A DNA stretch of 64,000 nt from positions 82,709 to 146,708 of the IMG/VR virus record IMGVR_UViG_3300027287_000002; one strand, given 5' to 3'. Both the position numbers and the translations under genes were made by a program. This DNA comes from a virus. How positions within the stretch are numbered: position 1 is the stretch's first letter; each line of letters starts with the position of its first letter. Under the pieces are notes generated by a model, which saw nothing but the letters and a program-made list of their open reading frames with translations, was not told the origin of the DNA and made no database searches. Of the stretch, positions 2,243 to 34,444 are shown piece after piece.

Positions 2243-2276
2243 TAAACACTTGCTCTAAAGGTTTATTGCAAGTTCA
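2243..2276 (-). promoter_or_regulatory. Conserved TTGCAA-17-TGTTTA promoter-like element (copy 1)
   Basis: Read on the minus strand, TGAACTTGCAA (the TTGCAA at 2266-2271) is followed by 17 bases and TGTTTA (2248-2243), then GGTAGTAT. The same arrangement with the same spacing occurs at four other gene-unit heads in the window. It lies 36 bases before the gene starting at 2207. Confidence 0.7.
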
Positions 2277-2283
2277 CTTATAT

Positions 2284-2424
2284 TTATTGGTGCTTTAAAA
2301 GTTTTGTCTTTAAAGCAGTCAAGGTTTTTATGCTGAGTTTGTTTTTAACTAGAACCAATTCAACTTCCATTCGGATTTGAGAATTTTTACAAGTATATAA
2401 CAAACGATATACTTCGTTTAACAT
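2284..2424 (-). CDS. Small 46-residue basic protein
   Basis: A short frame begins at the ATG at 2424, which overlaps the stop codon of the preceding gene as TAATG. AAGGG lies 6 bases before it. A second possible ATG at 2430 would add two residues but sits too close to that site. The product starts MLNEVYRLLYTCKNS and is rich in Lys and Leu with no known motif. The tight coupling and ribosome binding site support it as a real gene at the end of the three-gene unit that starts at 3019. Function unknown. Confidence 0.55.
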   Translation of the reverse strand: MLNEVYRLLYTCKNSQIRMEVELVLVKNKLSIKTLTALKTKLLKHQ

Positions 2425-2714
2425 TACCATCCCTTCTTGCTCAACAAAAATTTGAGTTTTGGTTTTACTGAATCAGGATCAGTCTGGTCAATGTAGAAAG
2501 TCCTAGACTTTGTAAAGTCACCATTTATTTGAATGACTTGCACAAGGATATAGGTTTTACCTTTTTGGATTTGTTTCATCCCATGTATGTGGATTTTGGT
2601 ATTAACATCCAAGTGAATGTCAATACTGCCATTCTGCAAAATATCAGATTTGATATCTGCATAGACAGAAGAAAGAGTAGAGATGATGGATTGATTTAAA
2701 ATTTGAGTTAACAT
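2424..2714 (-). CDS. Unknown 96-residue protein
   Basis: GGAGT precedes the ATG at 2714 by a normal distance. The protein alternates short charged and hydrophobic stretches (for example IDIHLDVNTKIHIHG), which suggests a small beta-rich fold. It is the second gene of the unit transcribed from the element at 3052-3085. Size and general layout resemble the gene before it (both begin with a NQxIIST-like segment), so they may be distant paralogues, though the similarity is too weak to be sure. No function is recognised; small genes at the head of such units in large phages often act on host processes. Confidence 0.75.
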   Translation of the reverse strand: MLTQILNQSIISTLSSVYADIKSDILQNGSIDIHLDVNTKIHIHGMKQIQKGKTYILVQVIQINGDFTKSRTFYIDQTDPDSVKPKLKFLLSKKGW

Positions 2715-2725
2715 AGTAATACTCC

Positions 2726-3019
2726 TTATTTGATGTTTTTTGGTAAAAGTTTGGTGATGACTTTTTGACTATCTTCTGATTTGCAGGACTCAAATCTATC
2801 TTCGATTTGAATGCCATCTTTATCATAGATAGATAAAGTAAAGGTGCAGATTGCTTTATTTACAGGTGTTCTGTAAATAAGATTTACTCTTGTTTGGTCT
2901 TTGTGTTTACCTGTGTACTCACAAGTAAAGATATAACCATCGAAACTACACACGGATGTGATTTCGAGGTTGCTGTATTTAGTAGAGATGATTTGGTTTA
3001 GTGTAGAAAAGTGGATCAT
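2726..3019 (-). CDS. Unknown 97-residue protein, first gene after a conserved promoter
   Basis: The ATG at 3019 is preceded by AAAGGAT at good spacing and lies 32 bases after the TGTTTA of the promoter-like element at 3052-3085. The protein has four cysteines, in CSFDG, FTCEY, ICTF and ESCKS contexts, and a predicted beta-strand pattern. It is soluble and has no recognised family. Being first in its unit suggests early expression. The 11 bases between it and the next gene show an operon. Function unknown. Confidence 0.75.
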   Translation of the reverse strand: MIHFSTLNQIISTKYSNLEITSVCSFDGYIFTCEYTGKHKDQTRVNLIYRTPVNKAICTFTLSIYDKDGIQIEDRFESCKSEDSQKVITKLLPKNIK

Positions 3020-3051
3020 TTTTTTATCCTTTGGTTTGTTGTTGTACTAGA

Positions 3052-3085
3052 TAAACACTTAAGATTAAAACTTATTGCAAGTTCA
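3052..3085 (-). promoter_or_regulatory. Conserved TTGCAA-17-TGTTTA promoter-like element (copy 2)
   Basis: On the minus strand, TGAACTTGCAA (TTGCAA at 3080-3075) is followed by a 17-base spacer and TGTTTA (3057-3052), then TCTAGTAC. The spacer ends AATCTTAAG, as in copy 4. It drives the small-gene unit that starts at 3019. Confidence 0.7.
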
Positions 3086-3104
3086 TTAAATTTTTTATTT
3101 TAAA

Positions 3105-3118
3105 TATAAATGTTCTTT
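3105..3118 (+). promoter_or_regulatory. Candidate late promoter motif for the baseplate/fibre cassette
   Basis: TATAAATGTTCTTT ends 32 bases before the ATG at 3151. It shares the 12-mer TAAATGTTCTTT exactly with the minus-strand copy at 29044-29058. It lies divergent to the early-type element at 3052-3085. Confidence 0.45.
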
Positions 3119-3150
3119 GTAGCTAAACTTATTATGTGAAAGGCATACAG

Positions 3151-4179
3151 ATGAGTAAAGACATTCATGTTTCACACCAATGTCCACATTACATTAGGTT
3201 TGAATCCTATACTTTAGATAATATCACTGATGTTGTCACTAGATCACCTATCAATGGTTCTAGTCTTTTTACCATCACTAAAAATAATATTACCATAAAC
3301 CAAGAAGGTCTTTACTCACCTGCTGAAATTATCTTCCCTGCTAATGCTCCATATAAAATCCTAAATCCTAACTACACTTTTGTTTATCAAAATGTATCTT
3401 ATCCTGTGAAATTTGATACAGGTCTTTTATCTGCATCTCAAATCCAAAACACTCTTATTAAATACCTGCCTATGAATAAAGTAGAAGTCAATCTTGTAAA
3501 CCAATCTATTCAGATAAAAGATAAATCCACAGGTCTATCTTCAAGACTAGAAATACAAGGTGATTTAAATAAGTTTGGATTTACTTATGAGAAATTTAAA
3601 GCACAAGGTAAACAAGTGCATACAGGCTGGAAACTTTTTAAAAGAGATGATGGCTTAGGCTATTTCATTCGCTTTAATGAAAATGTAAAAGGTAATTATC
3701 TTATTTCATACACTACAGAAAAGAATTATTGTAATCGATGTGCAAGCACAGGCATTGAAAATGATTTAAGATTTAATGAGTATGGTGAAATTAAACAAGT
3801 GGAAAAACACGATCTACTTTATCAGCAGGTTGCCAAAGTTTGCCTTACTAAAATTAATACTAATCCTCAACACTCTTGGTATGGTACTAATGCTTTTGAT
3901 TTTGTAGGTGCTAAACAAGGCAACCTAGCTAAACTTAGCATTCAAGAATCTGTAAGACAAGCACTCAATCAGCATATCAATATTCAAAATCAAGTTGGTA
4001 AAATACAAAAGCTATCTTTAGAAGAACAAATTGCATCTGTTCGGAAAATTGATGTGCAACAAGTTCCTAATACTAATAATGCCTACCTTGTTGATATTGG
4101 TCTTGTTAGCAGAGCAAATACACCTGTTAATCTTAACATTGTGTTTGCAGTCCCCGGCTCTATTGACTTAACAAATTGA
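3151..4179 (+). CDS. Baseplate protein with gp25-like C-terminal half
   Basis: This 342-residue protein probably belongs to the baseplate wedge. The C-terminal half has the look of the gp25/W family: a Lys-Ile-Asn-Thr-Asn-Pro segment followed by WYGTNAFDFVGAK, then a run of helices and a final VDIGLV...VNLNIVF strand pair. Before it sits CNRCASTGIENDLRFN, with one CxxC. Its place directly before the J-like gene matches the W-J order of many contractile tails. The frame is also open from a GTG at 3136, but AAAGG lies 7 bases before the ATG at 3151, so I chose 3151. It is the first gene of the long cassette to 22182. Confidence 0.72.
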   Translation: MSKDIHVSHQCPHYIRFESYTLDNITDVVTRSPINGSSLFTITKNNITINQEGLYSPAEIIFPANAPYKILNPNYTFVYQNVSYPVKFDTGLLSASQIQNTLIKYLPMNKVEVNLVNQSIQIKDKSTGLSSRLEIQGDLNKFGFTYEKFKAQGKQVHTGWKLFKRDDGLGYFIRFNENVKGNYLISYTTEKNYCNRCASTGIENDLRFNEYGEIKQVEKHDLLYQQVAKVCLTKINTNPQHSWYGTNAFDFVGAKQGNLAKLSIQESVRQALNQHINIQNQVGKIQKLSLEEQIASVRKIDVQQVPNTNNAYLVDIGLVSRANTPVNLNIVFAVPGSIDLTN

Positions 4180-4192
4180 AAGATAAAATAAA

Positions 4193-7100
4193 ATGATACA
4201 AATTATTTCACCTAGTGGTTCTTTACTAGATAGTCCTGCTAACTATTCCACTACTCAAAAAGCTATCTTTATTAAAGGTATTACTGATGATCCAAGCAAT
4301 CTTAGTATCACTATTGAAAACCAAACCTATACAGGCATGGATATTTTCTTTGATGGTAATTACTTTACCTTTCCTAATCCTGCTCTTAGTCCTGATGGTC
4401 TTATTCTCTATAATGGTAATAACAATCTTATTCTTAATCTTTCTACTACTGAAACCTTTTATCTTAATGTTATCCAACCTATCGTCAATCTCTACCAACC
4501 ACCTGCTCAACCACAAGGCATCTATATTGAAAGACTTGCACAAGATGTTCTTATTAAATTCCAACATACAGACAGTGAAGTCAAATATTATAACTTGTAT
4601 GCTAGTGTTTCTTCAGGTGGTGGCATCAATGGTTATCAAAAAATTAACTTTGAACCTTTAGATCCTATTAGCTATGGCATAGGTAAAGAAGTTTTAACTA
4701 CCATTGCAGATGAAACCTTTAATGCAAATACTCAAACTGCTGATCCTTTATATGCTAAATTAAATTTCATCCAAACTGATGGTTCTACTAATTTAGCCAG
4801 CGATGTCATTTTTAATAGTGAAGTCAGTGAAGCTATTAAACGATTGAGATTGACTGCTACTTTATCTGCTATTGATATCCAAACTGAAATCGTCTTTAAA
4901 CATAATAGACAAGCTACTCAAAATTCTACACCACCTACTATTCAATTTGGTGCTTTCGCTTCTCTTTCTAATGAAAATGTTCTTTACTATGTTGCCACTG
5001 CTGTTAAAGTTGTTAATGGTACTGAAATTGAAAGTGCATATTCTTTAGAAGTAGTAGGCAAGCCTGTCAATATTAATCAATCTAATGTTTCTTTACCTGT
5101 AGTCAATCGTCAAACCTTAACTACAGAAATGATTACTACCATCCATAAATTACAACCTGATGCTTTAGTGAACCCGGGCTCTGTTACTAGAGATGTCATT
5201 ATTGATCCTTTTGTTAATGAAATGGAAAGAACTAGATTCTTATTAGACTTTACCTACCGTGCTATGTCTTTTACTACTTTACTCACTATTGATGATCCTA
5301 GAAACACAGGTAAAAGTATTGCAGTCAGTAATTCAAATTATAAAACTGCTCTTGGACAAGCTCTTTTCTTTAGTGAACAAAATAGAGTACAAGCAGTTAT
5401 TGATTCAGCCTTTGATAAACTTGCATATAACTTTGGCATTAAAAGAAGATTAGGTAGTCGTGCAATTGGTGAAGTAGTTTTCTTTGTTAAGACTGCTCCT
5501 ACTAGAACTATCAATATTCCTTCATACACTACGATTTATGCAGGCAGTATTCCTTTTCAAACTACACAATTCGCTAGAATTTCAATAGATACATTATCTT
5601 CTTTTTATGATCCTGTTAAAGATAGATATGCAGTTTATGTACCTGTGCAAGCATTAAATATAGGTATTGCAGGCAATGTCACTAGCAACCAAATCAGAAA
5701 CTCTTCTATTAATGGTCTTTCTGTGAATAATGAAAATCCTACCTTTGGTGGATCAGAAGTAGAATCAAATTTAGATTTAAGTTCAAGAGCAATTAATACT
5801 CTTGCTAGTGTAGATACAGGTACTAAATCAGGTATTGAAAGAATAGCTAGTGCAACTGCTGGTGTTACTGAAGTTTTTGTCGCAGGTGCTGAATCACCTT
5901 ATCAATTTAGAGGTGATGGCAAAGTTGATGTGTGGATTCGTGGTGTGTCTTTAGCTACTGCTACTGATTTATATGCTCCAAATTTCCAAACACATAAAGA
6001 TAGTCTTTTCATTCCTATTGCTGAAGGCATCTATCAATTTAAATTAGGTGATCTCAATTTGTCTTTATATAAAATGATAGATAACCAAACATTAGGATAT
6101 GGTTTAAAAAATGCCACAACAGGTGAATGGTTTGATCTCACTAACCATACTATAACAAATGACAATATTGTTATTTTAGATACTAGCTTAACACAGCCTG
6201 ATTACAATATCACAGATGTTATCATAGGTGATTGGCAAGAAAATATTAGTGAAATCATTTATCTCACTAGACAGCCTGTTGAAAGCATCTCTACTTTAAT
6301 AGATGAAAATAATGTAGAATATGCACAAGGTACTGATTATCTTTTTAAGAAAACACAAGATCCTTTACTTGAAGGATATTCCACCAAAGCTAAAGATAAT
6401 ATCTTAATCAATAATGGTGCTATCACTTCTGATTTCTATTCCACAAGCGAAGTGTTTAGCTTTATTGGTTTTTATCCATATCAATTGACTAAAAAAGGTG
6501 TAGATGCTTTAAGCATCCAGCTTAGACTTGATTCGAGTGGTGATGGTGAAACAGGCTATACTTTCTATAATTCATCTTATGTTGCTAATCCTGATTTCAT
6601 TATTGAAACTACAGATGAAGGATATACTACTTTAACTAGAACATCTAATTCTGACATCCCTGAAAATGTCACAGTCAAAGTCAATTATAGCTATCTCTTA
6701 AATCTTGAAGTCACTTATTCATATAATCAAGTACTGCAAAATGTTCAATCTCAAATTAATAACTCAAAACATTTGACTGCTGATATACTTGTTAAACAGT
6801 GCATTCCCTGTCCTATAGATGTAAAAGCAAATATTGTTATCCGAAAAGGCTATCAAGTTAGCCAAATCGATCTTGCTATTAGAAACAATGTACAAAATTA
6901 TATTTCTTATCTTAATCTAGGTGCTAACCTAAGAGTGAGTGATATTGTAAGAGTGCTGGATAATGCAGATGGTGTTGCTTTTATTGACTTGCCTTTAACA
7001 CAGCTTTCTTTTTCAGTAAATACTCTTGTCATTAGAGAAGAAATCATACCTAATAACTCATACACTCAAATTGTATCTTTAACTACAGGTGTTGCAGTCG

Positions 7101-7462
7101 CATGGCTTATTGATGTAAACCTAGCACAACCTGCATCTACAGATGGTGGTGAAATAGGTCGTGTTTATGGCAATGGTTTAGAATTTAATCTAGTTTCCCA
7201 ATCACTGATCACTACTTTGGGGAATAAACCAAATAGTGTTTGCATTATAGGCAATACTGATCTTGTAATAGGTGGCAATCCTATTACAAACAGTAAAAAT
7301 AAAATCCTTGTTGCTTTGCCTATTGGTAAATCACCAAGTGATTACACCTTTCATGTAAATTACCAAACAGCAGATGGCTCAGGCTTTGTTAATAACTTAT
7401 CCTTAAATCCATTCTCTTATTTCACTGTTGGCAACTTAAACTTCACTTACAGAGCAGAGTAA
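4193..7462 (+). CDS. Baseplate J-like (gp6-like) wedge protein
   Basis: This 1089-residue protein carries the features of the baseplate J family, which builds the baseplate ring. PGSVTRDVIIDP is near residues 327-338. SGIERIASATAGVTEVFVAG is near residue 546, the position where J proteins have their GV-x-V motif. A C-terminal segment near 886-940 (IDLAIRNNVQNYISYLNLG, then LRVSDIVRVL and DGVAFIDL) is typical of the family end. It is much longer than P2 J (about 300 residues) and closer to the large wedge proteins of big myoviruses. The N-terminal 300 residues look like beta-sandwich repeats. It follows the gp25-like gene by 13 bases. Confidence 0.82.
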   Translation: MIQIISPSGSLLDSPANYSTTQKAIFIKGITDDPSNLSITIENQTYTGMDIFFDGNYFTFPNPALSPDGLILYNGNNNLILNLSTTETFYLNVIQPIVNLYQPPAQPQGIYIERLAQDVLIKFQHTDSEVKYYNLYASVSSGGGINGYQKINFEPLDPISYGIGKEVLTTIADETFNANTQTADPLYAKLNFIQTDGSTNLASDVIFNSEVSEAIKRLRLTATLSAIDIQTEIVFKHNRQATQNSTPPTIQFGAFASLSNENVLYYVATAVKVVNGTEIESAYSLEVVGKPVNINQSNVSLPVVNRQTLTTEMITTIHKLQPDALVNPGSVTRDVIIDPFVNEMERTRFLLDFTYRAMSFTTLLTIDDPRNTGKSIAVSNSNYKTALGQALFFSEQNRVQAVIDSAFDKLAYNFGIKRRLGSRAIGEVVFFVKTAPTRTINIPSYTTIYAGSIPFQTTQFARISIDTLSSFYDPVKDRYAVYVPVQALNIGIAGNVTSNQIRNSSINGLSVNNENPTFGGSEVESNLDLSSRAINTLASVDTGTKSGIERIASATAGVTEVFVAGAESPYQFRGDGKVDVWIRGVSLATATDLYAPNFQTHKDSLFIPIAEGIYQFKLGDLNLSLYKMIDNQTLGYGLKNATTGEWFDLTNHTITNDNIVILDTSLTQPDYNITDVIIGDWQENISEIIYLTRQPVESISTLIDENNVEYAQGTDYLFKKTQDPLLEGYSTKAKDNILINNGAITSDFYSTSEVFSFIGFYPYQLTKKGVDALSIQLRLDSSGDGETGYTFYNSSYVANPDFIIETTDEGYTTLTRTSNSDIPENVTVKVNYSYLLNLEVTYSYNQVLQNVQSQINNSKHLTADILVKQCIPCPIDVKANIVIRKGYQVSQIDLAIRNNVQNYISYLNLGANLRVSDIVRVLDNADGVAFIDLPLTQLSFSVNTLVIREEIIPNNSYTQIVSLTTGVAVAWLIDVNLAQPASTDGGEIGRVYGNGLEFNLVSQSLITTLGNKPNSVCIIGNTDLVIGGNPITNSKNKILVALPIGKSPSDYTFHVNYQTADGSGFVNNLSLNPFSYFTVGNLNFTYRAE

Positions 7463-7466
7463 AAAC

Positions 7467-9833
7467 ATGAGTGATAAAATTCCTTTTTATCCTGATTTCC
7501 CAATTGCCAATACAGATCCGATTGGCAGTAAAAGTGAAGAAAAAAAAGCATTACAGGATTCACTTGTAGTCGCTTATGCTAATGCTCTTTCAGGTTCTTT
7601 AGCATCTAACTACCTTTCCGAATATGGTAGCAATAATAGAATTTTATATGAAGGTCTAGGTAAAACTCTTTCTAGTCTTTTATTAGATTGCTTAGACCTT
7701 GTAAATGAAGTGGACTACTCTCAAATTAGACCTGAGTTTTTTAATGATAGACTTTATGGACTACTTTTTCCTAAATCTGTAGATAGACCTTCTTTTAATA
7801 ATGAAACAGAATTGAGATATACGATTTTAAATCTTATCCAAGCATTATTACAAGGTAGCACAGGTAAAGCTATTTTATATCTTCTTAATAAAGTTCAAGC
7901 GAATAGTCTTGTTGAGATTTCAGAAATAGGTGATTTTTTAATTGACTGTCTTATCTCATCTTATGCTTTGACAACAGAAGTGAATGGACATAAACATTAT
8001 GTATATGCACCTATTTTAGGTTTAGGTAAAACATCTGCACCTATAGGATATAAATGGGGTGATGATCTACACCAACATGATGTTTTAGATGGCATCGTTC
8101 AAACTGCTAGTGGACATACACATGAAGTCTTATATGGTTTTCAACAGGATGTGATTACACTACAGGATAATTTATATAAGCTACTCTTAAAAACTAAACC
8201 TGCTCATGTCAATATAGGTAATAGACCAAGTACTTTATTTAAAGAAGTTATTAATAAACCTACCTTTGATTTTTCTTTGACTGCTGGTTTAATGTTTCAA
8301 GAGGATTTAAGAAAGACAGATCAAGGCATTTATTTATCTAGTGTTTATGGATATACTCTTACAAACTCTAAATTCCTAAGAGTGTATGATAGTGGTTTTA
8401 GGATAAATGATCGTATCCGTGTAAATAATCAAGAGAGAAAGATTGTTGCCATTAATACTGTTTTGGCAGATGATGCACCTAGTGTTTCTTATTCTGTACC
8501 AAGACTTAACTTAACAGGCACAGGTTCTATTGTAAACCATTGCTTAATTGCATCTATGTTAGTTATGCAAGAAGGTGAATTAGTCTTAATAGGTGCATCT
8601 GCTTATTTCATCTTAAAAGTAAATCCTTATACATATAAATTATCTGCACAGGTTTTCACTTTGGATAGACCTTTGACTGCTACCACAGCTAACTTATATC
8701 TATTAGAAAATCTACAATCTTCTTTTAAGACAAGACCATTGAGATATAAAACATATAGTCAAACTTTCCCTGTCTTAACAAGTCAATTTACTTTACCTTT
8801 TTCTACACCATATACAATTTATGGTATGCCTATCCTACCAAGTGATTTTACTAGCAGTGTAGAAATTACAGAATACAATCCATTTACTCGTGTTATTTCT
8901 TTAAGTACATCCACTACTGAAATTGAAATCACTTATCCTTATGATGAAACAGATCAAGTATGTTTCACTGCTTTAAATGATACTAGCTTTGTGCTTAATT
9001 CATATAGACCTAGAAACCAAAGACCAACAACAAATCTTTTGCCTGCGAATAGAATTGAAAAAAGAAATGCACAGGTCTTATTTCACCATAAGAATACATA
9101 TCCATTAGTAAAAGAATGGGTAAGATCATTTTATGCACATAGTAATACAGATACTCTTAATAACTCATCTTTGCTTTTAAATTCTAAAAATAAATTAAAC
9201 AGACACAATGTTATTAATGCTGTGCATAGAGTATTAGCACCTGCTAGTGCAAGTGTATCTGTCTTAGATGGTAAAGTGATTTTACCTTTTCATGTGAAAC
9301 GAATGATATCTGTTAAGCAAGGATTGACAAATATCACTGCATATAAAGTAAATGGCAATGCAATTACTTTTAATGGCATAGCAGATGGCATAGTGATAGA
9401 TGTTGTATGCTTAACAAATCGTTCAGTTAGTCAAAGTGGTGATTGGTTTAGACCTGATGATTTAAATGAAGGCATGATACCATTTAAGAATATTGTTAAG
9501 CAGGTTGCTTTTAATGTGGATGAATTTATGGCAAATCCATTAGGCAATGCAAATCCACCTGAAAAGCCTAGACAAACTAAAATTAAAGATACAGTAACAG
9601 ACAATAGTGGTTTAGCTAGTGAGTTTAGTTTTTTTAAAGATGAGTGGATAGGCTTAGAGCAAACCTTTGTTTTTGAGGATGTTTGTCCTGTGTTTAAGAG
9701 CAGTGGTGTAAATAATGCACCTTTCTTATTAAATAATGGCATCTTAAATCTTGAGCAATATGTATTAAATAATAACACTCAAGTTATATATGATGGTACT
9801 GCAAGTGTTGAAATAATACTCATATCGCTTTAA
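7467..9833 (+). CDS. Large baseplate/tail protein with three HxH motifs
   Basis: This 788-residue protein follows the J-like gene by 4 bases, the place where gpI/gp7-like proteins that connect wedge to fibres are encoded. The first 170 residues are helical, with a repeated pattern of Leu-rich segments. Three HxH motifs follow in a short span: HKH at 175-177, HQH at 202-204 and HTH at 217-219. In known tail fibres and spike tips, HxH motifs bind iron and lock strands together. The remaining 550 residues look like beta-rich modules. I do not recognise a named family; baseplate location is inferred from gene order. Confidence 0.68.
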   Translation: MSDKIPFYPDFPIANTDPIGSKSEEKKALQDSLVVAYANALSGSLASNYLSEYGSNNRILYEGLGKTLSSLLLDCLDLVNEVDYSQIRPEFFNDRLYGLLFPKSVDRPSFNNETELRYTILNLIQALLQGSTGKAILYLLNKVQANSLVEISEIGDFLIDCLISSYALTTEVNGHKHYVYAPILGLGKTSAPIGYKWGDDLHQHDVLDGIVQTASGHTHEVLYGFQQDVITLQDNLYKLLLKTKPAHVNIGNRPSTLFKEVINKPTFDFSLTAGLMFQEDLRKTDQGIYLSSVYGYTLTNSKFLRVYDSGFRINDRIRVNNQERKIVAINTVLADDAPSVSYSVPRLNLTGTGSIVNHCLIASMLVMQEGELVLIGASAYFILKVNPYTYKLSAQVFTLDRPLTATTANLYLLENLQSSFKTRPLRYKTYSQTFPVLTSQFTLPFSTPYTIYGMPILPSDFTSSVEITEYNPFTRVISLSTSTTEIEITYPYDETDQVCFTALNDTSFVLNSYRPRNQRPTTNLLPANRIEKRNAQVLFHHKNTYPLVKEWVRSFYAHSNTDTLNNSSLLLNSKNKLNRHNVINAVHRVLAPASASVSVLDGKVILPFHVKRMISVKQGLTNITAYKVNGNAITFNGIADGIVIDVVCLTNRSVSQSGDWFRPDDLNEGMIPFKNIVKQVAFNVDEFMANPLGNANPPEKPRQTKIKDTVTDNSGLASEFSFFKDEWIGLEQTFVFEDVCPVFKSSGVNNAPFLLNNGILNLEQYVLNNNTQVIYDGTASVEIILISL

Positions 9834-9850
9834 AGGATAGATAAGAAAAA

Positions 9851-10474
9851 ATGATTAGTGAAAATATTAAAAGACCACAAAGTTCAGTAGCTTTTGGATT
9901 TGGATTTAATGAAACTACATACCGTGTAAAAGGTGAAGTGTTTATTAAGCTGGATGATCAAGAGATTAAAGTAAATAATGTTTACACTTTAGATGGTAGC
10001 TTGCTTGCATCTATTCTCTTTTCAGGATTATATCCAACACGATCACCTATTACAATGTTAGCAGTAGGTACAGGTGCAACAGGTACAAGTTTAGTACCTA
10101 GTGTTGCAGATCAAAGACAAAGAAGATTAAATACTGAAATTGCTCGTAAAGAATTTGCATCTGTCTTATTTAGAAATCCTACAACATTTGCAGTCAGTAC
10201 AATTCCTACGAATGTTGTAGATTTCACAACTGTTTATAATGAGGGTGAAGCAGTAGGTGCTTTAAATGAAATGGGATTGGTTAGTCCTTATGATGCAAGT
10301 CCTTTATCTAATTATCCTTTATTAGATGGTAATGGTGATCCTGTTAGTTTTCCTGATTATGATACTACTTTAGATGTTACGAATTATGACATTCTGATTA
10401 ACTATTTGACTTTCCCTGTGATCAATAAGCCATCTAATTCTGTTTTAGCAATTACTTGGCGATTGACTTTTTAA
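9851..10474 (+). CDS. Tail/baseplate structural protein
   Basis: This 207-residue protein has AAAGGAT upstream of its ATG. It contains the segment MLAVGTGATGTSLVPS followed by QRQRRLNTEIARKEF, an arrangement I have seen in tail accessory and fibre-connecting proteins of other large phages. It is beta-rich, soluble and has no cysteine. Gene order, between the large HxH protein and the first fibre-type protein, suggests a baseplate-to-fibre adaptor. Function is an inference from context only. Confidence 0.65.
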   Translation: MISENIKRPQSSVAFGFGFNETTYRVKGEVFIKLDDQEIKVNNVYTLDGSLLASILFSGLYPTRSPITMLAVGTGATGTSLVPSVADQRQRRLNTEIARKEFASVLFRNPTTFAVSTIPTNVVDFTTVYNEGEAVGALNEMGLVSPYDASPLSNYPLLDGNGDPVSFPDYDTTLDVTNYDILINYLTFPVINKPSNSVLAITWRLTF

Positions 10475-10490
10475 AAGGTAGATAAGTAAA

Positions 10491-13385: not shown

Positions 13386-13391
13386 AGAAAA

Positions 13392-16373: not shown

Positions 16374-16389
16374 AAAATGAAAGTATAAA

Positions 16390-17025
16390 ATGATAATCGT
16401 AAACAGAAAAGATGATAAAATCATCCAAAGGTCTAGTGAAATCACAATCACAGATATGAATGGCAAATACCTTTTAGATGAACCTGAAACCACTAAAGTT
16501 TCTTTAGCTAATTCTATTCCTACCATCCAATCCGATATTCAAGATAGCTTCCTTGCTCTTTATCCAGATTACACAGATATAACCTTTAAATCTTTACCTG
16601 TGCAATCCGATTTTGATGCTAGTGCTTTATATACTACTTATCCATCAAGATGTCAGTTAGGTAGTGATTATAATACCTGTGCTATTTTACCTAAAAATGA
16701 AAACACTAATGCTTATGGTGTGCTTATCACAGATACAATCACTACTACAAGTAAAGATAAATTCCTTGTCTATTGGAAGGTTGCTATTGTTAGCTATGGT
16801 CAAGAGCAATCAGTAAATGTAAATGTACCAAGCACAATGACATATGAAATTTTAGAACCTAGTGATATTCAAGTGTATATTTCTAATGATGACGGTGTAT
16901 CTTATACAGAGGCGAATTATTTGACACCTGTGAGTTTTCCGAGTGCATCCACTACTCTAAGACTAGCATTTATCAATAATTCATTAAATAAAATACACTT
17001 ATTAGGATATGCAATACTTTACTAG
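16390..17025 (+). CDS. Fibre-associated structural protein or chaperone
   Basis: This 211-residue protein sits between two fibre genes and begins with a short beta-strand segment (MIIVNRKDDKIIQRSSEITI). The rest is beta-rich, with a DIQVYISNDDGVSYTEANY segment that resembles strand pairs in fibre domains and a C-terminal LRLAFINNS...LLGYAILY. It has no catalytic motif or membrane span. Placement suggests a fibre component, fibre-tip adhesin or assembly factor. I cannot choose among them from sequence. Confidence 0.62.
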   Translation: MIIVNRKDDKIIQRSSEITITDMNGKYLLDEPETTKVSLANSIPTIQSDIQDSFLALYPDYTDITFKSLPVQSDFDASALYTTYPSRCQLGSDYNTCAILPKNENTNAYGVLITDTITTTSKDKFLVYWKVAIVSYGQEQSVNVNVPSTMTYEILEPSDIQVYISNDDGVSYTEANYLTPVSFPSASTTLRLAFINNSLNKIHLLGYAILY

Positions 17026-17037
17026 GAGATAATTAAC

Positions 17038-22182: not shown

Positions 22183-22194
22183 CAAAGTAAATGA

Positions 22195-22623
22195 TCATTG
22201 TGGTTTGTCATTATATTGACCAACAGTAATATCATCTCTTTCAAATTGTTTTTGTAAATCTGAAATAAATTTCATTGCATCAATATCACCTAATTCAATT
22301 AAAGGAATCAATCTCTTTGTGGAATCAGGAATTGCATCATCAAAAAGAACTGCATCTTCAAGTGATGCACCTGCAATGAAAACTGCAAAGATTGCATTGT
22401 ATGGAATATGACATTCAAAAGGTACACCACCAAAGGATAAAGTTGCCACGACTTTATCATCTCTAAACTGCATAGGATATGAAAAGTGATTTGAAAGATT
22501 TAATCGTACATTATCTTTACTCATTAAATCTTTTGGTAATTTAACACCTTCATAGGTAGGATTAATTGCAACAGTGGTTTTTGCTATTGCTAAGTGATCT
22601 AAAAGGATTTGCTTTCTATCCAT
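22195..22623 (-). CDS. sspB: SspB-like ClpXP adaptor
   Basis: This 142-residue protein resembles SspB, the adaptor that binds ssrA-tagged proteins and hands them to ClpXP. Residues 24-33 (YEGVKLPKDL) fit the family's 'G-V-x-LP-x-x-L' entry and 40-46 the 'xLNLSxx' strand. Residues 61-80 read TLSFGGVPFECHIPYNAIFA, the family signature (SFGG-x-P, then C/V-x-[IV]-P-x-x-A[IV]). The tail differs: bacterial SspB ends in a short hydrophobic-basic ClpX-docking peptide, but this one ends ITVGQYNDKPQ with none visible. It may bind ClpX differently, or capture tagged proteins without delivering them. It is the first gene after the element at 22684-22717. Identity is from recognised motifs; effect on proteolysis is inference. 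Confidence 0.75.
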   Translation of the reverse strand: MDRKQILLDHLAIAKTTVAINPTYEGVKLPKDLMSKDNVRLNLSNHFSYPMQFRDDKVVATLSFGGVPFECHIPYNAIFAVFIAGASLEDAVLFDDAIPDSTKRLIPLIELGDIDAMKFISDLQKQFERDDITVGQYNDKPQ

Positions 22624-22683
22624 TTGTATTTTCCTTCGTTATTGAAGTTTGAGTTCTCAAAGAACTTATTGTCTACATATACC

Positions 22684-22717
22684 TAAACACTAAAGATAAA
22701 TTTTTATTGCAAGTTCA
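22684..22717 (-). promoter_or_regulatory. Conserved TTGCAA-17-TGTTTA promoter-like element (copy 3)
   Basis: On the minus strand, TGAACTTGCAA (TTGCAA at 22712-22707), 17 bases, then TGTTTA (22689-22684) and GGTATATG. It overlaps the stop codon of the ligase gene and lies 60 bases before the SspB-like gene, giving that gene its own promoter. Confidence 0.7.
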
Positions 22718-24547
22718 TTTACACATATTTAAAAATTCTTGTTCTGTGATAACCTTAATGCCAAGTGCATTTGCTTTATCTAGTTTACTGCCAGCTTTTT
22801 CACCTGCTACAAGATAACTTAAATTCTTGCTTACTGATGATGCTACATTGCCACCTAACTCTAATACCTTTGCTTCTGCATCATTTCTCTTTAAGGTAGT
22901 CAATGTACCTGTGAAAAGAAATGATTTGTTTTTAAAGATACCTGTCTTTTCACTGCCATTGTCAATTTGGATATATTGCAAAAGATCAGTAATAACATTT
23001 ACATTTGCTTTAAGACCATTAACAATATCCTGTGCTGTGATACTGCCAAAACCATCTAGTTTTTCAATATCAGATGTCTTTAATGCTAAAACTGCATCTA
23101 AGGTTTTAAATTGACTTGTTAAAACATCACTTGCTTTTTTACCTAAACTGTGAATGCCAAGAGATATTAAAAACTTATCTAAAGATAATCTAGTGCTTTT
23201 GGTAATGCTAGATAACCAATTATCTGCTCTAGTTTCACCAACACTTTCAATCTTTAATAAATCTTCTCTTTTAAGTCTATATAGATCAGCAAAGTTATTG
23301 ACAAGACCTTCTTCTATTAACTTTTCAATCCATACATTGCCTATGCCTTCAATACCTACTTTTTCCATAAAGTAACTTACCTTTGTAGATAAACTACAAT
23401 TCGCTGTGCAATATAGAAAATCTTCTTTTTGTTCTGTTGCTGATGAACAGAATGGACAACATACAGGAATTTCAATAGATGTATCACCTGCATTAATGAC
23501 TTTTTCAAGGTGTGGAATAACACCACCTCTTCTTATTGCCAAAACATCTGCATTAAGAGTTAAACCTTTTGTCTTAATCATACCTGCATGATGCAAAGTA
23601 ATCCTGCCTACCATTGCACCACTTAATTTCACAGGTTGGACGATTGCTACAGGTGTTAAGATACCTGATCTGCTAATTTGCCATTCAACATTTAAAAGTT
23701 TAGTTGTACCAAACTCACCTTGAAATTTATATGCTATTGCTCCTTTAGGGTGATGTGATGTATATCCTGCATTTTCATATGCTTGATTATCATTTACACG
23801 ATAAACAACACCATCTAGTTCATAGTCCAAACTATCTTTAATGTTTAGGATATGATCATAACCTGCTTGTAGATGATCAATACCATTAAAGACAGTATAA
23901 AATGGGATTTCAAAACCTAATGCTTTAAGTGCATCTATTTTATCAGAAAATAGATTAAACTCACTGCCTATGAAATCGTATGCAAGAAACTTGATGCCTT
24001 GTACATTGCCATCTTTTCTCTTAATAATACCTGCTACTGCATTTCTAGGATTTGCAAAGATATCCTTTTGAGTATTAAATACAGAAATAGGCATATATAA
24101 TTCACCACGAATTTCTACAGGTGTTGTTATGCTAATTTGCTTTGGTACGATGTTGATAATGTTTTGTGTAATATCTTCACCTATATTGCCATCACCTCTT
24201 GTTGCACCTTGTACCAAAATGCCATTTTCATATTTGATACTGCAAGCCATACCATCAATTTTAGGTGTGCATACATAAGATGAAAAAGACCTAGACCATT
24301 TCTTTAAGTCATCTTCATTATAACACTTGTCTAATGACAACATAGGTTTAGAATGTTGTACTTCCATACCAATTTCTGCGAATGTGCCTAAACTGCTTAA
24401 GACAGGTGATGTAGGTGCAACTGCTCTTAATTGCTCTACAAGTGCATCATACTCTACATCAGAGATTTCAGGTGCATTCAAATCCCAATAAAGAGAATTG
24501 TGTTTCTTAACTAGATTTTCAAGTTCTGTGATAGATAACATTTTCAT
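22715..24547 (-). CDS. ligA: NAD-dependent DNA ligase
   Basis: This 610-residue enzyme seals nicks using NAD+. Domains in order: Ia (residues 3-60, with PEISDVEYDALVEQL), adenylation domain with catalytic lysine in KIDG at 96-99 and RGDG at 117-120, OB domain, zinc finger Cys364, Cys367, Cys380, Cys384, helix-hairpin-helix region with GVxG-like loops near 395-525, and a BRCT domain at about 539-610. All parts are present, so it is slightly shorter than the roughly 670 residues of bacterial LigA but intact. Two ATGs (MKM) are possible; AAAGGA lies 3 bases before the first and 9 before the second, which may be the true start. Phages more often carry ATP-dependent ligases. Confidence 0.96.
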   Translation of the reverse strand: MKMLSITELENLVKKHNSLYWDLNAPEISDVEYDALVEQLRAVAPTSPVLSSLGTFAEIGMEVQHSKPMLSLDKCYNEDDLKKWSRSFSSYVCTPKIDGMACSIKYENGILVQGATRGDGNIGEDITQNIINIVPKQISITTPVEIRGELYMPISVFNTQKDIFANPRNAVAGIIKRKDGNVQGIKFLAYDFIGSEFNLFSDKIDALKALGFEIPFYTVFNGIDHLQAGYDHILNIKDSLDYELDGVVYRVNDNQAYENAGYTSHHPKGAIAYKFQGEFGTTKLLNVEWQISRSGILTPVAIVQPVKLSGAMVGRITLHHAGMIKTKGLTLNADVLAIRRGGVIPHLEKVINAGDTSIEIPVCCPFCSSATEQKEDFLYCTANCSLSTKVSYFMEKVGIEGIGNVWIEKLIEEGLVNNFADLYRLKREDLLKIESVGETRADNWLSSITKSTRLSLDKFLISLGIHSLGKKASDVLTSQFKTLDAVLALKTSDIEKLDGFGSITAQDIVNGLKANVNVITDLLQYIQIDNGSEKTGIFKNKSFLFTGTLTTLKRNDAEAKVLELGGNVASSVSKNLSYLVAGEKAGSKLDKANALGIKVITEQEFLNMCK

Positions 24548-24562
24548 TCGTCCTTTCGTTTT

Positions 24563-24961
24563 TTAACAATCTACTTGATTGACACTCATTTTTGTTAGTC
24601 TTTTTATTTGTAATCCATCAGGTACTTTATCGCTAGGATTGTTTCTACATTCCCATGATAAGTAAGATAGGATGAAATCTATATCACTTGTCACAAATTT
24701 ACCATCTGTGAAAAGAGGATAATTATTATCATTTTCTGTGAAGGATAATAAATTTTTGTGATTGACTACTAGACCTGTGACATATTTACCATCTTCTGTT
24801 GTCCTAATGGTGATACTTTCAAATCCCATTGCTACAAAATCATGAAGAATTACTTCATTCTTTTTGATTGAGAAGTTTAAACCTTTCATGGTCAATCTTT
24901 CTTTGATGTATGTCTTTTCCTTGAGAACAGTAATACCTTTTGATCTTCTTGCCATTTTCAT
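24563..24961 (-). CDS. Unknown 132-residue protein, first gene of the ligase unit
   Basis: The product starts MKMARRSKG and has a basic first 25 residues followed by a mixed alpha/beta region with VAMGFESITIRTTEDGKYVTGLVV. There is no zinc motif or membrane span. As in the ligase gene, two ATGs lie six bases apart after AAGGA; the second (24955) has better spacing. It is 15 bases before the ligase gene and directly downstream of the element at 25004-25036, so the two are probably expressed together. Function unknown. Confidence 0.78.
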   Translation of the reverse strand: MKMARRSKGITVLKEKTYIKERLTMKGLNFSIKKNEVILHDFVAMGFESITIRTTEDGKYVTGLVVNHKNLLSFTENDNNYPLFTDGKFVTSDIDFILSYLSWECRNNPSDKVPDGLQIKRLTKMSVNQVDC

Positions 24962-25003
24962 TTTCCTTTTTTTGAAAAGTGGTTTTGTCTTATTGATACT
25001 ACT

Positions 25004-25036
25004 TAAACACTTAAGATTAAGATTTATTGCAAGTCA
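25004..25036 (-). promoter_or_regulatory. Conserved TTGCAA-17-TGTTTA promoter-like element (copy 4)
   Basis: On the minus strand, ACTTGCAA (TTGCAA at 25032-25027), 17 bases ending AATCTTAAG, then TGTTTA (25009-25004) and AGTAGTAT. The upstream flank is CTGACTTG rather than TGAACTTG. It drives the unit with the unknown protein and the ligase. Confidence 0.7.
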
Positions 25037-25078
25037 GATAAAAAAGATTATAAGAAAAAAAAGAAAGCAGGTGTTTAA

Positions 25079-25423
25079 TTGATTAAACTTTACTTACCTT
25101 TTACACAAGATTTGATAAAAGTGCCTTATTCCGAACAGGATATGTATTTGATCCAAGCTAAAGGATCAGGTTCTATTAAAATAGGTGTAGCTAAAGATTG
25201 TGATGCTCGTATAAAGCAATTACAGACAGGCAATGCTGTAGAATTAAGATTGATTCATGTCTTTAAAGGATATGGCAATGTAGAAAGACCACTGCATAAA
25301 GAATTGAAAAAGTTTAGAGAAAAAGGTGAATGGTTTTCCTATAAATGTGTTGGCTCACTGCCTGTTGAGATATATGAACAGATACCTTATGGTGCATTAG
25401 ATTCATGGTGGCTTTCTATATAA
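25079..25423 (+). CDS. T5orf172/MUG113-type GIY-YIG-like protein
   Basis: This 114-residue protein has the compact layout of the T5orf172 domain, a branch of the GIY-YIG nuclease fold. YLIQAKGSGSIKIGVAKD near residues 23-40 supplies the strand pair, a conserved Arg follows in DARIKQLQTGN, then a Glu in GNVERPLHKEL and the usual GEWF near the end. It is a stand-alone domain. The likely start is TTG, with AGGTG 5 bases upstream; the next ATG (residue 22) would remove the first strand. It is a single gene between two minus-strand units, which is typical of a mobile or recently inserted gene. Nuclease activity is not proven by these motifs. Confidence 0.75.
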   Translation: MIKLYLPFTQDLIKVPYSEQDMYLIQAKGSGSIKIGVAKDCDARIKQLQTGNAVELRLIHVFKGYGNVERPLHKELKKFREKGEWFSYKCVGSLPVEIYEQIPYGALDSWWLSI

Positions 25424-25510
25424 GAGCCAAGCAAACCTACTAGATATATAAATAATGCCTCTTTACTTAAAAAGAATAAAGCTAAACAAATTAAAAGATG
25501 CTTAATCATT

Positions 25511-26347
25511 TTACAAAGCTGTCCATTTCTCTTCATTATTAGGTGCATTATCTACTAATGTAGGAAAAGCACTTTCTACTGTTGTTATTCGTGGATTATT
25601 AAAATCCCTGCTTAGATTTGTATCTAAATTAGGATAAACAATATTGTCTATGTTATTTACAATGAAACTTAAATGATGTGTATCTGAATATGATTCACTA
25701 TCAAATAAAAGACTTGGTGTGACACCACCTACTGCACCTAATAAGATTTCATCTCTTTCTTTGACCAGCTGTTCTCTTAAATCGCATAGCTTAATAATTC
25801 TTGCCTCAAGATCATTTCTCAATTCTTTAATTTCCTGTGGCAACCATCTTTTAGCTGATTCGACTGCATCACTAATCTCTTTGCCAAAGTCATACATATT
25901 TAAATTCTTGCCAAACTTTCTAGGTGGAAATTTCCATAATGGCAACCAACCACCTGTACTTAATGTACCTGTTTGTGGATTTTTATCTGGCTGTGGTGCA
26001 ATGATACCCGTGTAAGGCTGTGTTTCAATAATTTGTTCATCACTGTAAAAATATGAATCTGGTTTTAAGAACATAGAAATATCAAAAGGATTTCCACCTT
26101 GCACAACATAAGCAATAATGAGTTTATGCAGGCTTGATCCTTTATTGACTTCAAATCCTATTCTTCTTTCTGTCATTTTACTTGTAGAACCATCTTTTAA
26201 AAAAGATACACGGATATATCCTATTTGTGAAAGTTCATTGTTAATAACTTTCAATCGTGCTTCGACATTTCTTCTTTGGTTTAAAGCAAAGTTTCTGAAC
26301 TCATACCAACTACCTTCTCTAAAATAAACAGACCAAGCAAAAGACAT
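25511..26347 (-). CDS. Probable virion structural protein
   Basis: This 278-residue protein starts MSFAWSVYFREGSWYEFRN and has a charged coiled-coil-like helix at about residues 165-205 (EIKELRNDLEARIIKLCDLREQ), then a low-complexity Asp/Asn-rich tail. GGAGG from the end of the previous gene serves as its ribosome binding site. It forms a tight unit with the 826-residue protein and the small coiled-coil protein upstream, all behind a candidate late promoter. That context makes a virion role likely. No family is recognised. Confidence 0.65.
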   Translation of the reverse strand: MSFAWSVYFREGSWYEFRNFALNQRRNVEARLKVINNELSQIGYIRVSFLKDGSTSKMTERRIGFEVNKGSSLHKLIIAYVVQGGNPFDISMFLKPDSYFYSDEQIIETQPYTGIIAPQPDKNPQTGTLSTGGWLPLWKFPPRKFGKNLNMYDFGKEISDAVESAKRWLPQEIKELRNDLEARIIKLCDLREQLVKERDEILLGAVGGVTPSLLFDSESYSDTHHLSFIVNNIDNIVYPNLDTNLSRDFNNPRITTVESAFPTLVDNAPNNEEKWTAL

Positions 26348-26352
26348 TTTTA

Positions 26353-28833
26353 TTATCCTCCAAAGATAGCAGAGAAAAGATCAATAACAATTTGTGGTGG
26401 ACCGGGGATGACAACACATTGACCAATACCTAAAGAAGGAGCATTAGGTTTTTTAGTAGCAGATAAGAAATCAGCAAGTAAACCATCTGTACCTTGTGAA
26501 ACAACAAAAAGCATACCGACAGTTGCACCTAGATCTAAAGCGAAATTTAAGATAGCATCTATAAATGCTTTTAGTTTAGCAATGATTCTTTGAATTTCTT
26601 GTATTCTCTTTTGCAAGACTTCAATAAAATCTTTAATCGCTTTAATAAGACCTTCTAAACCTAAAGTTAAGGTTTCTACAAAAGCAATAATTTCATTTAA
26701 ATAAGCTGTGAAATCAGGAAAGCCATCAATAAAGAATTTCACATTAAACCAAGCACCTGTTTCATTTAATACCTTCTGTGGTAAAGAAGTAAGCATCCGT
26801 CTAGCATTATCTACAATATCTTGATCTACCAAATCATACATAAGAGAAAGTTTAGCAGTAGTCTTTACTTGTTCTTTTTCTGAAACACCTAATTTCTTTT
26901 CTGTGTATGCAGTAGGAAACAAAGGTTCGATTCTTCTTTCAAGACCTGTAGTTAAGTAGATGATGTTATTAAATGCAGATCCTTCAACACGAGGTTTATT
27001 TGCCTTTAGAACTTCATCAAAAGAAGTATCGCCAAAGCTACCATAATTATTAGCATTCCCATGCACACCATACATATTATCTTCTATTAAGAAATCATAA
27101 AAACTTTTCTTTTGAATTTGATCGCCTACTTTAACATCTATTCTTTTTTCAGAAAGAAATTCAATTGGCTCTTGCAATGCTATCAGTTGTGCTTCTGTTG
27201 GAAAAGGTAATTTATTTACTATGTTCTGAATGACAGCTAAAACATCTGATCTAAAGCTATTCGCATCTTGATCAAATTTCACAAAGCTGGTGGCATTTGC
27301 CTGTCTATTGGCATATGCCATAAGATTGAATTTCACTTGTGATGGCAAATTGAAAAAATGAAACTTACTTGTACCATATAAATATGATTTGGCAAACTCA
27401 GCACTTTTTACACCAGCCTCTTGACCATTCAAATAATTCTTTTCATTTAAATAATCACCTAAAATGAAAATAGCTAATGCCTCTCTTAAAGCATTGATAT
27501 AATCTACACGATCATATTTAGGTAGCTTGGTTGAGATAGCATTAGAATTAGTAGAAACCAAACCTGTAACAATCCCATTAGAAACAATAGAGTTCCATAA
27601 GTATAAAGGAAGATTTTCTACAAGATCACTATCACTAAAACCTAAATCTGAACTTAAAGATAAAACTTCTACATATAAATCTTCTGCTTCACTTTCAGTT
27701 TGTTTATCAATAACAGTGATGCCATTTGTTGTATTGCCATCTACTTCATATGGTTTACTTGAATATGTGATTTTTTTAGGCAAATCTTTATATGGTATGG
27801 TTAAGCTATATGAATTACCTGTTAAGAAAGCACCTACTGCGAAAGGATTGTAGTAAAAAGATTTATTTGTCTTTTCTACCAAGTCTTGTGGCAGGATCAC
27901 TTTATCATTAAAAAAATACTGATAACTAAAGGGATAACCTTTTTTAATAATGTCATCAATAAAGTTTTCAAAATAAGGTATTACACGACTATCTTGAATG
28001 AGTGTTGGACTACTTAATAATGTAAATGACTTTCCATTTACAGTAACAGGCTTATATAAACTTGCACCTATTTCTTGTGCAAGTTCAATATTAGTAGTTG
28101 TCTGTGCAGATTTAGTTCTTCTTAATAAACCTACTTTCACAGGCATAGTACTTATATTTACTAAGAAAGCATCAGGTGGTACTACAAAAGATGGAAAAAA
28201 ACTGTCTTGACTATTAGAAGGTGGTGTTAATTCCCAAGAGATTTTTAAACCTTCAGGTGTTTTAAGTTTTGAATTAGAGAAAGGAACTCCGAACTTTGAA
28301 ACAAGTGTTGCTTTAACATTGGATGCGACTGGCAAACCACTATCTTCTAAAATTCCTGTAAATAGCTTTTTCAAATCATTAAATATTTTGATGAGTCTTA
28401 AAATCCCTTCTATATTAGAACCTGCGAATTGAAAAATACCAAGCACAACACTATCTTTACTGATAACAGGTCTTGTTGTATCAGCTGGATTAGTAAACTT
28501 GTTTACCATCCTTTGCTCAAATGCTTGATATCCACCAGCATACACTTTATAGCCTTCATCAAAAACTCTTGGCAACATATCCAAATCGGTAGTTAAATAA
28601 AGACCTAAGTTTTGAAGATCTGAAATGATATTTTTAATAAGTGCAATAAGCTCTTTCAAAAGCAATAACAAAGGATTACTGAAATCTATTAGAAAGGCTT
28701 TCACAAATTCTAACACATTATTAAGAAAGGTAAGAAAGATATTAAGAGTAGCAAAGATGTTATCTACAATTGGTCTAACTTCTTTAAAGATGTCAGGTAT
28801 TTTAGGTGTTTTAATAATTGACCATTCTGCCAT
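26353..28833 (-). CDS. Large virion structural protein with amphipathic ends
   Basis: This 826-residue protein has hydrophobic, amphipathic helices at both ends. Residues 20-75 include IFLTFLNNVLEFVKAFLID and LLLLLKELIALIKNIIS; residues 715-790 include TAYLNEIIAFVETLTLGLEG and LIKAIKDFIEVLQKRIQEIQ. The middle is mixed alpha/beta with several TxxxEVDGNTTNG-like loops. The ends could insert in membrane or pack as coiled coils along a tail or inside a head. It starts immediately after the stop codon of the small coiled-coil gene. Large proteins of this type occur near tail genes in other big myoviruses, but I cannot name a function. Confidence 0.66.
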   Translation of the reverse strand: MAEWSIIKTPKIPDIFKEVRPIVDNIFATLNIFLTFLNNVLEFVKAFLIDFSNPLLLLLKELIALIKNIISDLQNLGLYLTTDLDMLPRVFDEGYKVYAGGYQAFEQRMVNKFTNPADTTRPVISKDSVVLGIFQFAGSNIEGILRLIKIFNDLKKLFTGILEDSGLPVASNVKATLVSKFGVPFSNSKLKTPEGLKISWELTPPSNSQDSFFPSFVVPPDAFLVNISTMPVKVGLLRRTKSAQTTTNIELAQEIGASLYKPVTVNGKSFTLLSSPTLIQDSRVIPYFENFIDDIIKKGYPFSYQYFFNDKVILPQDLVEKTNKSFYYNPFAVGAFLTGNSYSLTIPYKDLPKKITYSSKPYEVDGNTTNGITVIDKQTESEAEDLYVEVLSLSSDLGFSDSDLVENLPLYLWNSIVSNGIVTGLVSTNSNAISTKLPKYDRVDYINALREALAIFILGDYLNEKNYLNGQEAGVKSAEFAKSYLYGTSKFHFFNLPSQVKFNLMAYANRQANATSFVKFDQDANSFRSDVLAVIQNIVNKLPFPTEAQLIALQEPIEFLSEKRIDVKVGDQIQKKSFYDFLIEDNMYGVHGNANNYGSFGDTSFDEVLKANKPRVEGSAFNNIIYLTTGLERRIEPLFPTAYTEKKLGVSEKEQVKTTAKLSLMYDLVDQDIVDNARRMLTSLPQKVLNETGAWFNVKFFIDGFPDFTAYLNEIIAFVETLTLGLEGLIKAIKDFIEVLQKRIQEIQRIIAKLKAFIDAILNFALDLGATVGMLFVVSQGTDGLLADFLSATKKPNAPSLGIGQCVVIPGPPQIVIDLFSAIFGG

Positions 28834-29019
28834 TTATTTTTTCTCTCTTTGATTTCTTTTTTGTGCTTCTAATCTTTCTAATTCCATTTGTGCTTTACTT
28901 AATTCCATTAAGTCTTTATCCAGCATAGATTGAAACATCTGCTTTAAACTTTCTAACTGATCTGTAAAGGATTTAACTTTTTCTTGATCTGGATTGATCT
29001 TGCTTTTCCATTCTGTCAT
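28834..29019 (-). CDS. Small coiled-coil protein
   Basis: This 61-residue, highly charged protein is helical throughout: from residue 15 it shows a heptad-like pattern (VKSFTDQLESLKQMFQSML) and ends in a Lys/Arg/Glu-rich tail. The frame is also open from a GTG at 29031, but AAGGTGAG lies 7 bases before the ATG at 29019, so I chose the ATG. Its stop codon abuts the ATG of the 826-residue protein. It may be a scaffold or binding partner for that protein. Function is inference. Confidence 0.75.
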   Translation of the reverse strand: MTEWKSKINPDQEKVKSFTDQLESLKQMFQSMLDKDLMELSKAQMELERLEAQKRNQREKK

Positions 29020-29043
29020 TTTTAATCTCACCTTTTTTCACAT

Positions 29044-29058
29044 AAAGAACATTTAATA
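29044..29058 (-). promoter_or_regulatory. Candidate late promoter motif
   Basis: On the minus strand this reads TATTAAATGTTCTTT and ends 24 bases before the ATG at 29019. The 12-mer TAAATGTTCTTT is identical to that before the baseplate cassette (3107-3118). Confidence 0.45.
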
Positions 29059-29108
29059 AAACAAATATAGTATAAGATACATATCTCTTTTAAATAAAGG
29101 AAAAGAAA

Positions 29109-29471
29109 ATGGCTTTAAAAACTCGTAAAGCAATACAAGTTCAAAATGCAATCCTACAAGACCTGCATCAAATCTTCTTAGAACTCGAAGAACCTGTAAG
29201 ACCTTTCGTTTCTAATAATGAAACAAAAGAAGATCGTGATGGACAAACTTATATTGTAGTGAAAAAAGACGACTTTGAAGATTACTTGGTGCTATGGATT
29301 AAAGAATATCAACATGACATTATTAATGTTAAGCATCCTATTGTGTCTGTTGGTTTTCCACTTGAAAACTTTGAAGTGAATGAAATTTCTCATATTCATA
29401 ATGCAGATGACTATTACTTTTGGAAACAGGATGTCTTAAGAGAAAGGATTAAAAAAATTTTAGAAATTTAA
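29109..29471 (+). CDS. Unknown 120-residue acidic protein
   Basis: The ATG has AAAGGAAAA in front of it. The protein is soluble and acidic, with a helical N-terminus (QVQNAILQDLHQIFLELEEP), a middle with VKKDDFEDYLVLWIKEYQHD and a helical end (VLRERIKKILEI). No motif is recognised. It opens a plus-strand run of small genes. A TATAGTATAAGATAC stretch at 29067-29081 could serve as a promoter core, but I have no comparison for it. Function unknown. Confidence 0.75.
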   Translation: MALKTRKAIQVQNAILQDLHQIFLELEEPVRPFVSNNETKEDRDGQTYIVVKKDDFEDYLVLWIKEYQHDIINVKHPIVSVGFPLENFEVNEISHIHNADDYYFWKQDVLRERIKKILEI

Positions 29472-29473
29472 AT

Positions 29474-29506
29474 GAACTTGCAATAATATCTTATGCAAAG
29501 TGTTAT
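29474..29506 (+). promoter_or_regulatory. Conserved TTGCAA-17-TGTTAT promoter-like element (copy 5)
   Basis: GAACTTGCAATAA (TTGCAA at 29478-29483), a 17-base spacer ending GCAAAG, then TGTTAT (29501-29506) and ATAAGTAC. It is the only plus-strand copy and lies 32 bases before the ATG at 29539. Confidence 0.68.
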
Positions 29507-34364: not shown

Positions 34365-34444
34365 CATTTTTTAAGTAAATCAAATCCTTAATAATATAAG
34401 TAAATGGACAACAAAACTCTTCTTTTGTCAAAAGGAAAAAACAA

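Follow-up and report, generated by a model that had tools for sequence, protein, structure and literature searches.

The window analysed here is a 64-kb stretch of DNA corresponding to bases 82,709-146,708 of a 146.7-kb viral contig. Exact pattern matching finds in it five copies of a two-box element, TTGCAA followed after a 16-bp spacer by GTGTT (box 2), with the coordinates and strands given in a preliminary description of the sequence. The copies and the genes behind them are:

2243..2276, minus strand: copy 1, flank TGAAC, TTGCAA at 2266-2271, spacer 16 bp, GTGTT at 2245-2249, tail TTAGGTAGTAT
1770..2207, minus strand: 145-aa gene, first gene after copy 1
3052..3085, minus strand: copy 2, TTGCAA at 3075-3080, spacer 16, GTGTT at 3054-3058
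2726..3019, minus strand: 97-aa gene, first gene after copy 2
22684..22717, minus strand: copy 3, TTGCAA at 22707-22712, spacer 16, GTGTT at 22686-22690
22195..22623, minus strand: 142-aa gene, first gene after copy 3
25004..25036, minus strand: copy 4, flank TGAC, TTGCAA at 25027-25032, spacer 16, GTGTT at 25006-25010
22715..24961, minus strand: unit behind copy 4, a 130-132 aa gene (24563-24961), then NAD-dependent DNA ligase (22715-24547)
29474..29506, plus strand: copy 5, TTGCAA at 29478-29483, spacer 16, GTGTT at 29500-29504
29539..29808, plus strand: 89-aa gene, first gene after copy 5

The start codons lie 28-60 bases from these copies, as previously measured, and the upstream flank of copy 4 does deviate, with one base of the GAAC flank missing relative to TGAAC. 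The five matches to TTGCAA-N16-GTGTT compare with 0.11 expected in 64 kb, and 0 of 100 dinucleotide shuffles of the window reached five; the copies are confirmed as real elements. The site of copy 1 is shared by contigs G001, G003 and G004. From their spacing and common strand, the two genes behind copy 4 are presumably co-transcribed. The 97-aa gene is a paralog of the gene behind another copy on the contig, at 43813(+).

The boxes had originally been drawn differently. A scan for GAACTTGCAATAA-N11-GTGTTTA, the pattern put forward in the preliminary description, returns no match even with three mismatches, because the true gap before GTGTTTA is 13 bases and not 11. The looser form TTGCAA-17-TGTTTA, searched with two mismatches, occurs 31 times against 24.5 expected, which is chance; the signal is carried by exact TTGCAA together with GTGTT. 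The geometry, described as fixed, is so in the window's five copies, but five other copies on the contig carry one extra spacer base. Likewise, the supposed family of five is five in the window only, with at least 31 copies across ~226 kb of the phage. This span combines the 146.7-kb contig with a second IMG/VR contig (G001, 195.7 kb), which is 99.9% identical to it where compared and extends 79 kb past the window's right end. Of the 31 exact two-box copies, 26 have a 16-bp spacer and the other five a 17-bp one, and a one-mismatch variant exists besides.

On the 146.7-kb contig all 27 copies are intergenic, contrary to what would be expected were they equally common inside genes. Intergenic sequence makes up only ~14% of this contig, giving P ~1e-23 assuming independence, a figure to be read as an order of magnitude only because some copies arose by duplication. 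In 24 of the 27 copies a start codon follows 26-61 bp past box 2; the other three face short reading frames, or none, kept by the crude gene caller, a simple script and not a trained one. A weighted motif scan showed a clean score gap, with nothing above 9 bits within genes, and revealed few variants of GTGTT, which the exact search had required. Twelve of the 27 copies sit between divergent genes and ten are tandem, beginning 2-15 bp past a gene on the same strand. Since these abutting and divergent copies leave little room for another promoter, promoter activity most likely resides in the element itself. Sequence upstream of the two-box core is A/T-rich. The distance from TTGCAA to TGTTWW is 17 or 18 bp, as in -35/-10 pairs; with TGTTTW at 17 or 18 bp, TGTTTA is plausibly the -10 box.

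Among the genes led by the motif are those of the DNA ligase and ThyX units, one for an AAA ATPase and many small genes without known function; the virion genes examined lack it upstream. Nucleotide-metabolism genes in the phage comprise those for adenylosuccinate synthetase (putative, by batch Pfam match; L074:10744-12081), adenylosuccinate lyase (L025:5281-6513), ThyX and thymidine kinase. At L025:12111-15146, two neighbouring genes match eukaryote-type (type IB) DNA topoisomerase I, with the weaker match in the second. Two phage tRNAs are found here and one in the related phage G006. A second recurrent upstream motif, TAATATAAG, is present at 19 intergenic sites in G006 and in the 34402-34410 region of the window, upstream of 34445-35494. 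It lies ~30-50 bp ahead of a clamp-like gene, a multi-HTH gene and others, and is possibly another promoter class.

The relatives of this phage include G006 (316 kb), whose virion proteins are mostly 84-90% identical to those of this phage. G006 carries 45 exact copies, all with spacer 17 and all (45/45) intergenic, and a few more with one base changed; G007 (72 kb) carries 14 copies, again all with spacer 17 and all (14/14) intergenic. A search of both at spacer 16 did not find the motif, which is present there at spacer 17. A few copies each occur in G002, G005, G012 and G013. When IMG/VR was searched with the right pattern, G006, G007 and G012 were found among several single-match contigs; a negative control with the pattern one base too long gave 32 single, chance-like matches. 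Many of the genes behind the motif here have orthologs in G006 and G007 that it also precedes, among them those of the 145-aa gene in both phages and that of the 97-aa gene in G007. Flanks are alike among the copies of one phage and unlike between phages: in G006 conservation spans GTTGCAAAGATAGC via ACAAGTGTTATAnnTATGTC to TAATGAC, whereas only TTGCAA, the spacer to within one base and (A)AGTGTT are kept between phages. As spacer 17 is commoner across the clade, spacer 16 is probably a derived state in this phage's lineage, at 26 of its 31 sites. Box 2 is directly followed in G006 by a small inverted repeat, GTCR-ATAA-YGAC. All four of its pairs can form in 31 of the 47 G006 copies listed, and the closing pair is A-T, G-C or G-T, i.e., with compensating changes; it likely lies at the 5' end of the transcript.

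A more distant relative is the 485-kb huge phage LR745208.1; the virion proteins in common are mostly ~25-50% identical, rising to 87% in the best conserved. The TTGCAA/GTGTT motif was not found in LR745208.1, which has its own family of ~47 intergenic sites, CTAAA-N17-CGATAGG, mostly 14-25 bp ahead of small genes (loci L207-L216). Read as TAAAAAGT-n11-GCCGATAG, these sites match the bacterial sigma-28 (FliA) consensus, and near-identical sites can also be written TAAAAAGT-n11-GCCGATAGG, in sigma-28 (FliA) geometry. Repeated two-box promoters before small genes therefore recur in wholly different sequence, and lineages appear to exchange their promoter specificity as a whole. Two proteins of LR745208.1 match Sigma70 region 4 above the cut-off. 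The shift from spacer 17 to 16, the flank changes and the unrelated sigma-28-like family form a natural series in which a whole promoter set changes together, and we consider this regulon-wide change between lineages the most interesting side of the family.

The preliminary claim of a dedicated phage promoter family ahead of first genes is borne out by the intergenic placement in all three phages, the tight orientation and distance, and the conservation in sister phages. In its arrangement, two boxes that recur ahead of genes at a nearly constant distance from each other, the motif agrees with the phage-sigma class typified by phage 7-11. At the position of a canonical sigma70 -10, TGTTTA, TGTTAT or TGTTTT is found, with G at position 2. 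No consensus sigma70 -10 lies at the distance expected of a T4-type middle promoter, and the window's motif does not match the sigma-28 form TAAA-n15-GCCGATAA. The ECF consensus GAACTT-16-TCTGA and those of sigma-32, sigma-54 and the Bacteroidota TTG/TAnnTTTG pair, all compared by eye, misfit in spacing. A literature search found no published account of this motif, and no cultured member of this jumbo phage genus was found.

It had also been suggested that a phage factor or a modified polymerase would be needed. By Pfam profile search, PF00623 was not found in G000, G001, G002 or G005, nor PF00562 in G000, G001 or G006, and large unassigned proteins had no RNAP match in PHROGs. These beta/beta' profiles, which do not directly cover a very divergent or single-subunit polymerase, thus revealed no phage-encoded RNA polymerase of the sort that serves the phage-RNAP promoter class (single-subunit or phiKZ/AR9 multisubunit). 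The modified polymerase has no support, as no beta/beta' domain was found, and the phage factor gains indirect support from a sigma-like protein and the lineage-specific change of the motif. The sigma-like protein is the leading candidate reader, and a multi-HTH protein is its rival:

G001:28019-28750, minus strand, outside the window: sigma-like protein, 243 aa
L025:18350-19462, L026:1018-2217 and L125:14694-15806: multi-HTH proteins, about eight tandem units as modelled, clade-restricted

Residues 92-240 of the 243-aa protein match the PHROG sigma-factor family (1.3e-6), and two orthologs match Sigma70_r2 at 0.003 and 0.006, under the Pfam curated cut-off. Its structural model is poor overall (mean pLDDT 49.5) but improves in the C-terminal third, and many ECF sigma factors appear in the Foldseek list, none with a significant E-value. 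Its G006 ortholog is 90% identical, yet the spacers are 17 in G006 and 16 here, which argues against a sigma role. In LR745208 a homolog with 25% identity is accompanied by a different promoter family; co-evolution would account for this, and a role elsewhere, e.g., at late genes, would do so equally well. Since the contigs may be incomplete, the gene set could lack a further factor.

On balance we favour, with some reserve, the view that the five elements are members of a class of phage-specific promoters to which host RNA polymerase is redirected by a phage-encoded specificity factor. The conserved 243-aa protein is the likeliest such factor: TTGCAA would serve as a -35 box for the region-4-like HTH at its C terminus, TGTTWW as a -10 box for its region-2-like part, and transcripts would be expected to start 6-9 bp downstream of TGTTWW. 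If factor and sites change together, copies would be alike within one phage and different between phages. It also seems rather probable that across an uncultured genus of jumbo myophages this class drives ~30-48 transcription units of small unknown genes and some nucleotide- or DNA-metabolism genes, but not the virion genes examined.

A different division of labour is possible, if somewhat unlikely: in activator-type middle promoters, a multi-HTH phage activator would bind TTGCAA...GTGTT and host sigma would contact a degenerate A/T-rich -10 (TATAnn) downstream. The ~45 bp conserved in G006 are longer than the usual -35/-10 pair, and TAT begins 21 bp past TTGCAA in G006 and in the main class of this phage, although this distance is not kept in the G007-type element. 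The multi-HTH proteins are found only in motif-bearing phages and are modelled with eight HTH units, but confidence in the overall fold is low (pTM 0.32) and phage HTH-repeat proteins are often tied to endonucleases. In PHROGs they resemble the HTH repeats of HNH endonucleases and D5-like regulators, and a fold search of the PDB gave no significant match. Two paralogs accompany two spacer classes here and one of each occurs in G006, but this correlation consists of two genomes. A more specific version, in which the eight-HTH protein touches all 40-45 bp of the element and brings in host polymerase, the second paralog having co-evolved with the shorter spacer, strikes us as doubtful; were it true, ~26 promoters would have changed geometry together.

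The promoters could instead be served by a host sigma factor, whether primary or alternative, that has gone unrecognised, and would then need no phage protein at all, which we judge quite improbable. TTGCAA is similar to TTGACA, and the LR745208 sites match the bacterial sigma-28 consensus, so phages of the wider group may exploit host-type sigma promoters. Nevertheless, TGTTTA and TGTTAT lack the A at position 2 of TATAAT, a reader encoded by the phage would better account for the genome-wide, lineage-specific drift of flanks and spacer, and the pattern was not found in three MAGs, none of them an established host. An attempt to assign a host by MAG co-binning placed three portal relatives in Actinomycetota, Verrucomicrobiota and Altiarchaeales MAGs, which are contradictory and motif-free. 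Least credible of all is a non-promoter function, as a repressor operator (stoperator-like), RNA leader element or processing site. The inverted repeat after the element in G006 would suit such a role, but the hairpin is missing from most copies in this phage, orientation and distance to start codons are fixed, and the 12 divergent and ten abutting tandem copies leave scant room for a separate promoter. Rfam gave no match in the window.

Under the favoured reading of a phage-directed promoter class, the family provides a jumbo phage genus with a regulon defined by sequence and with a candidate sigma factor, and its sites flag transcription units rich in small unknown genes, good candidates for host-takeover functions. 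Among known systems, bacterial sigma-28 promoters (TAAAGTTT-n11-GCCGATAA; PMC2859248) share the two-box alternative-sigma architecture, with ~47 such sites in analogous position in LR745208, but the window's motif has neither consensus box. T4 middle promoters combine a MotA box at about -30 with a sigma70 -10 (PMC6755090); they resemble the present class in their phage-specific upstream box and their replication and nucleotide-metabolism genes, but have an excellent TATAAT -10 that is lacking here. Nor did a MotA or AsiA homolog come to light incidentally during the analysis. The middle and late promoters of phiEco32 (tAATGTAtA) are read by the phage sigma gp36 (PMC8948821), which redirects host RNAP to a phage-wide motif, as may happen here, although that motif is a single box and the present one has two. 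The nearest parallel is in the late promoters of Salmonella phage 7-11 (GTAAtg-16-aCTA), which use host RNAP and the phage sigma SaPh711_gp47 (PMC8948821). The boxes differ, 7-11 has eight copies before late genes compared with 31-48 before small and metabolic genes here, and recognition by sigma, proven in 7-11, is putative in the present case. In both, short paired boxes stand 16-17 bp apart and occur many times per phage, without likeness to the host consensus and in a sequence that varies among related phages; the phage-encoded sigma factor of 7-11 has a candidate, sigma-like counterpart here. We thus regard the phage promoter family as real; its sequence and its clade are new but its kind is known, that of phage-factor-directed promoters as in phage 7-11.
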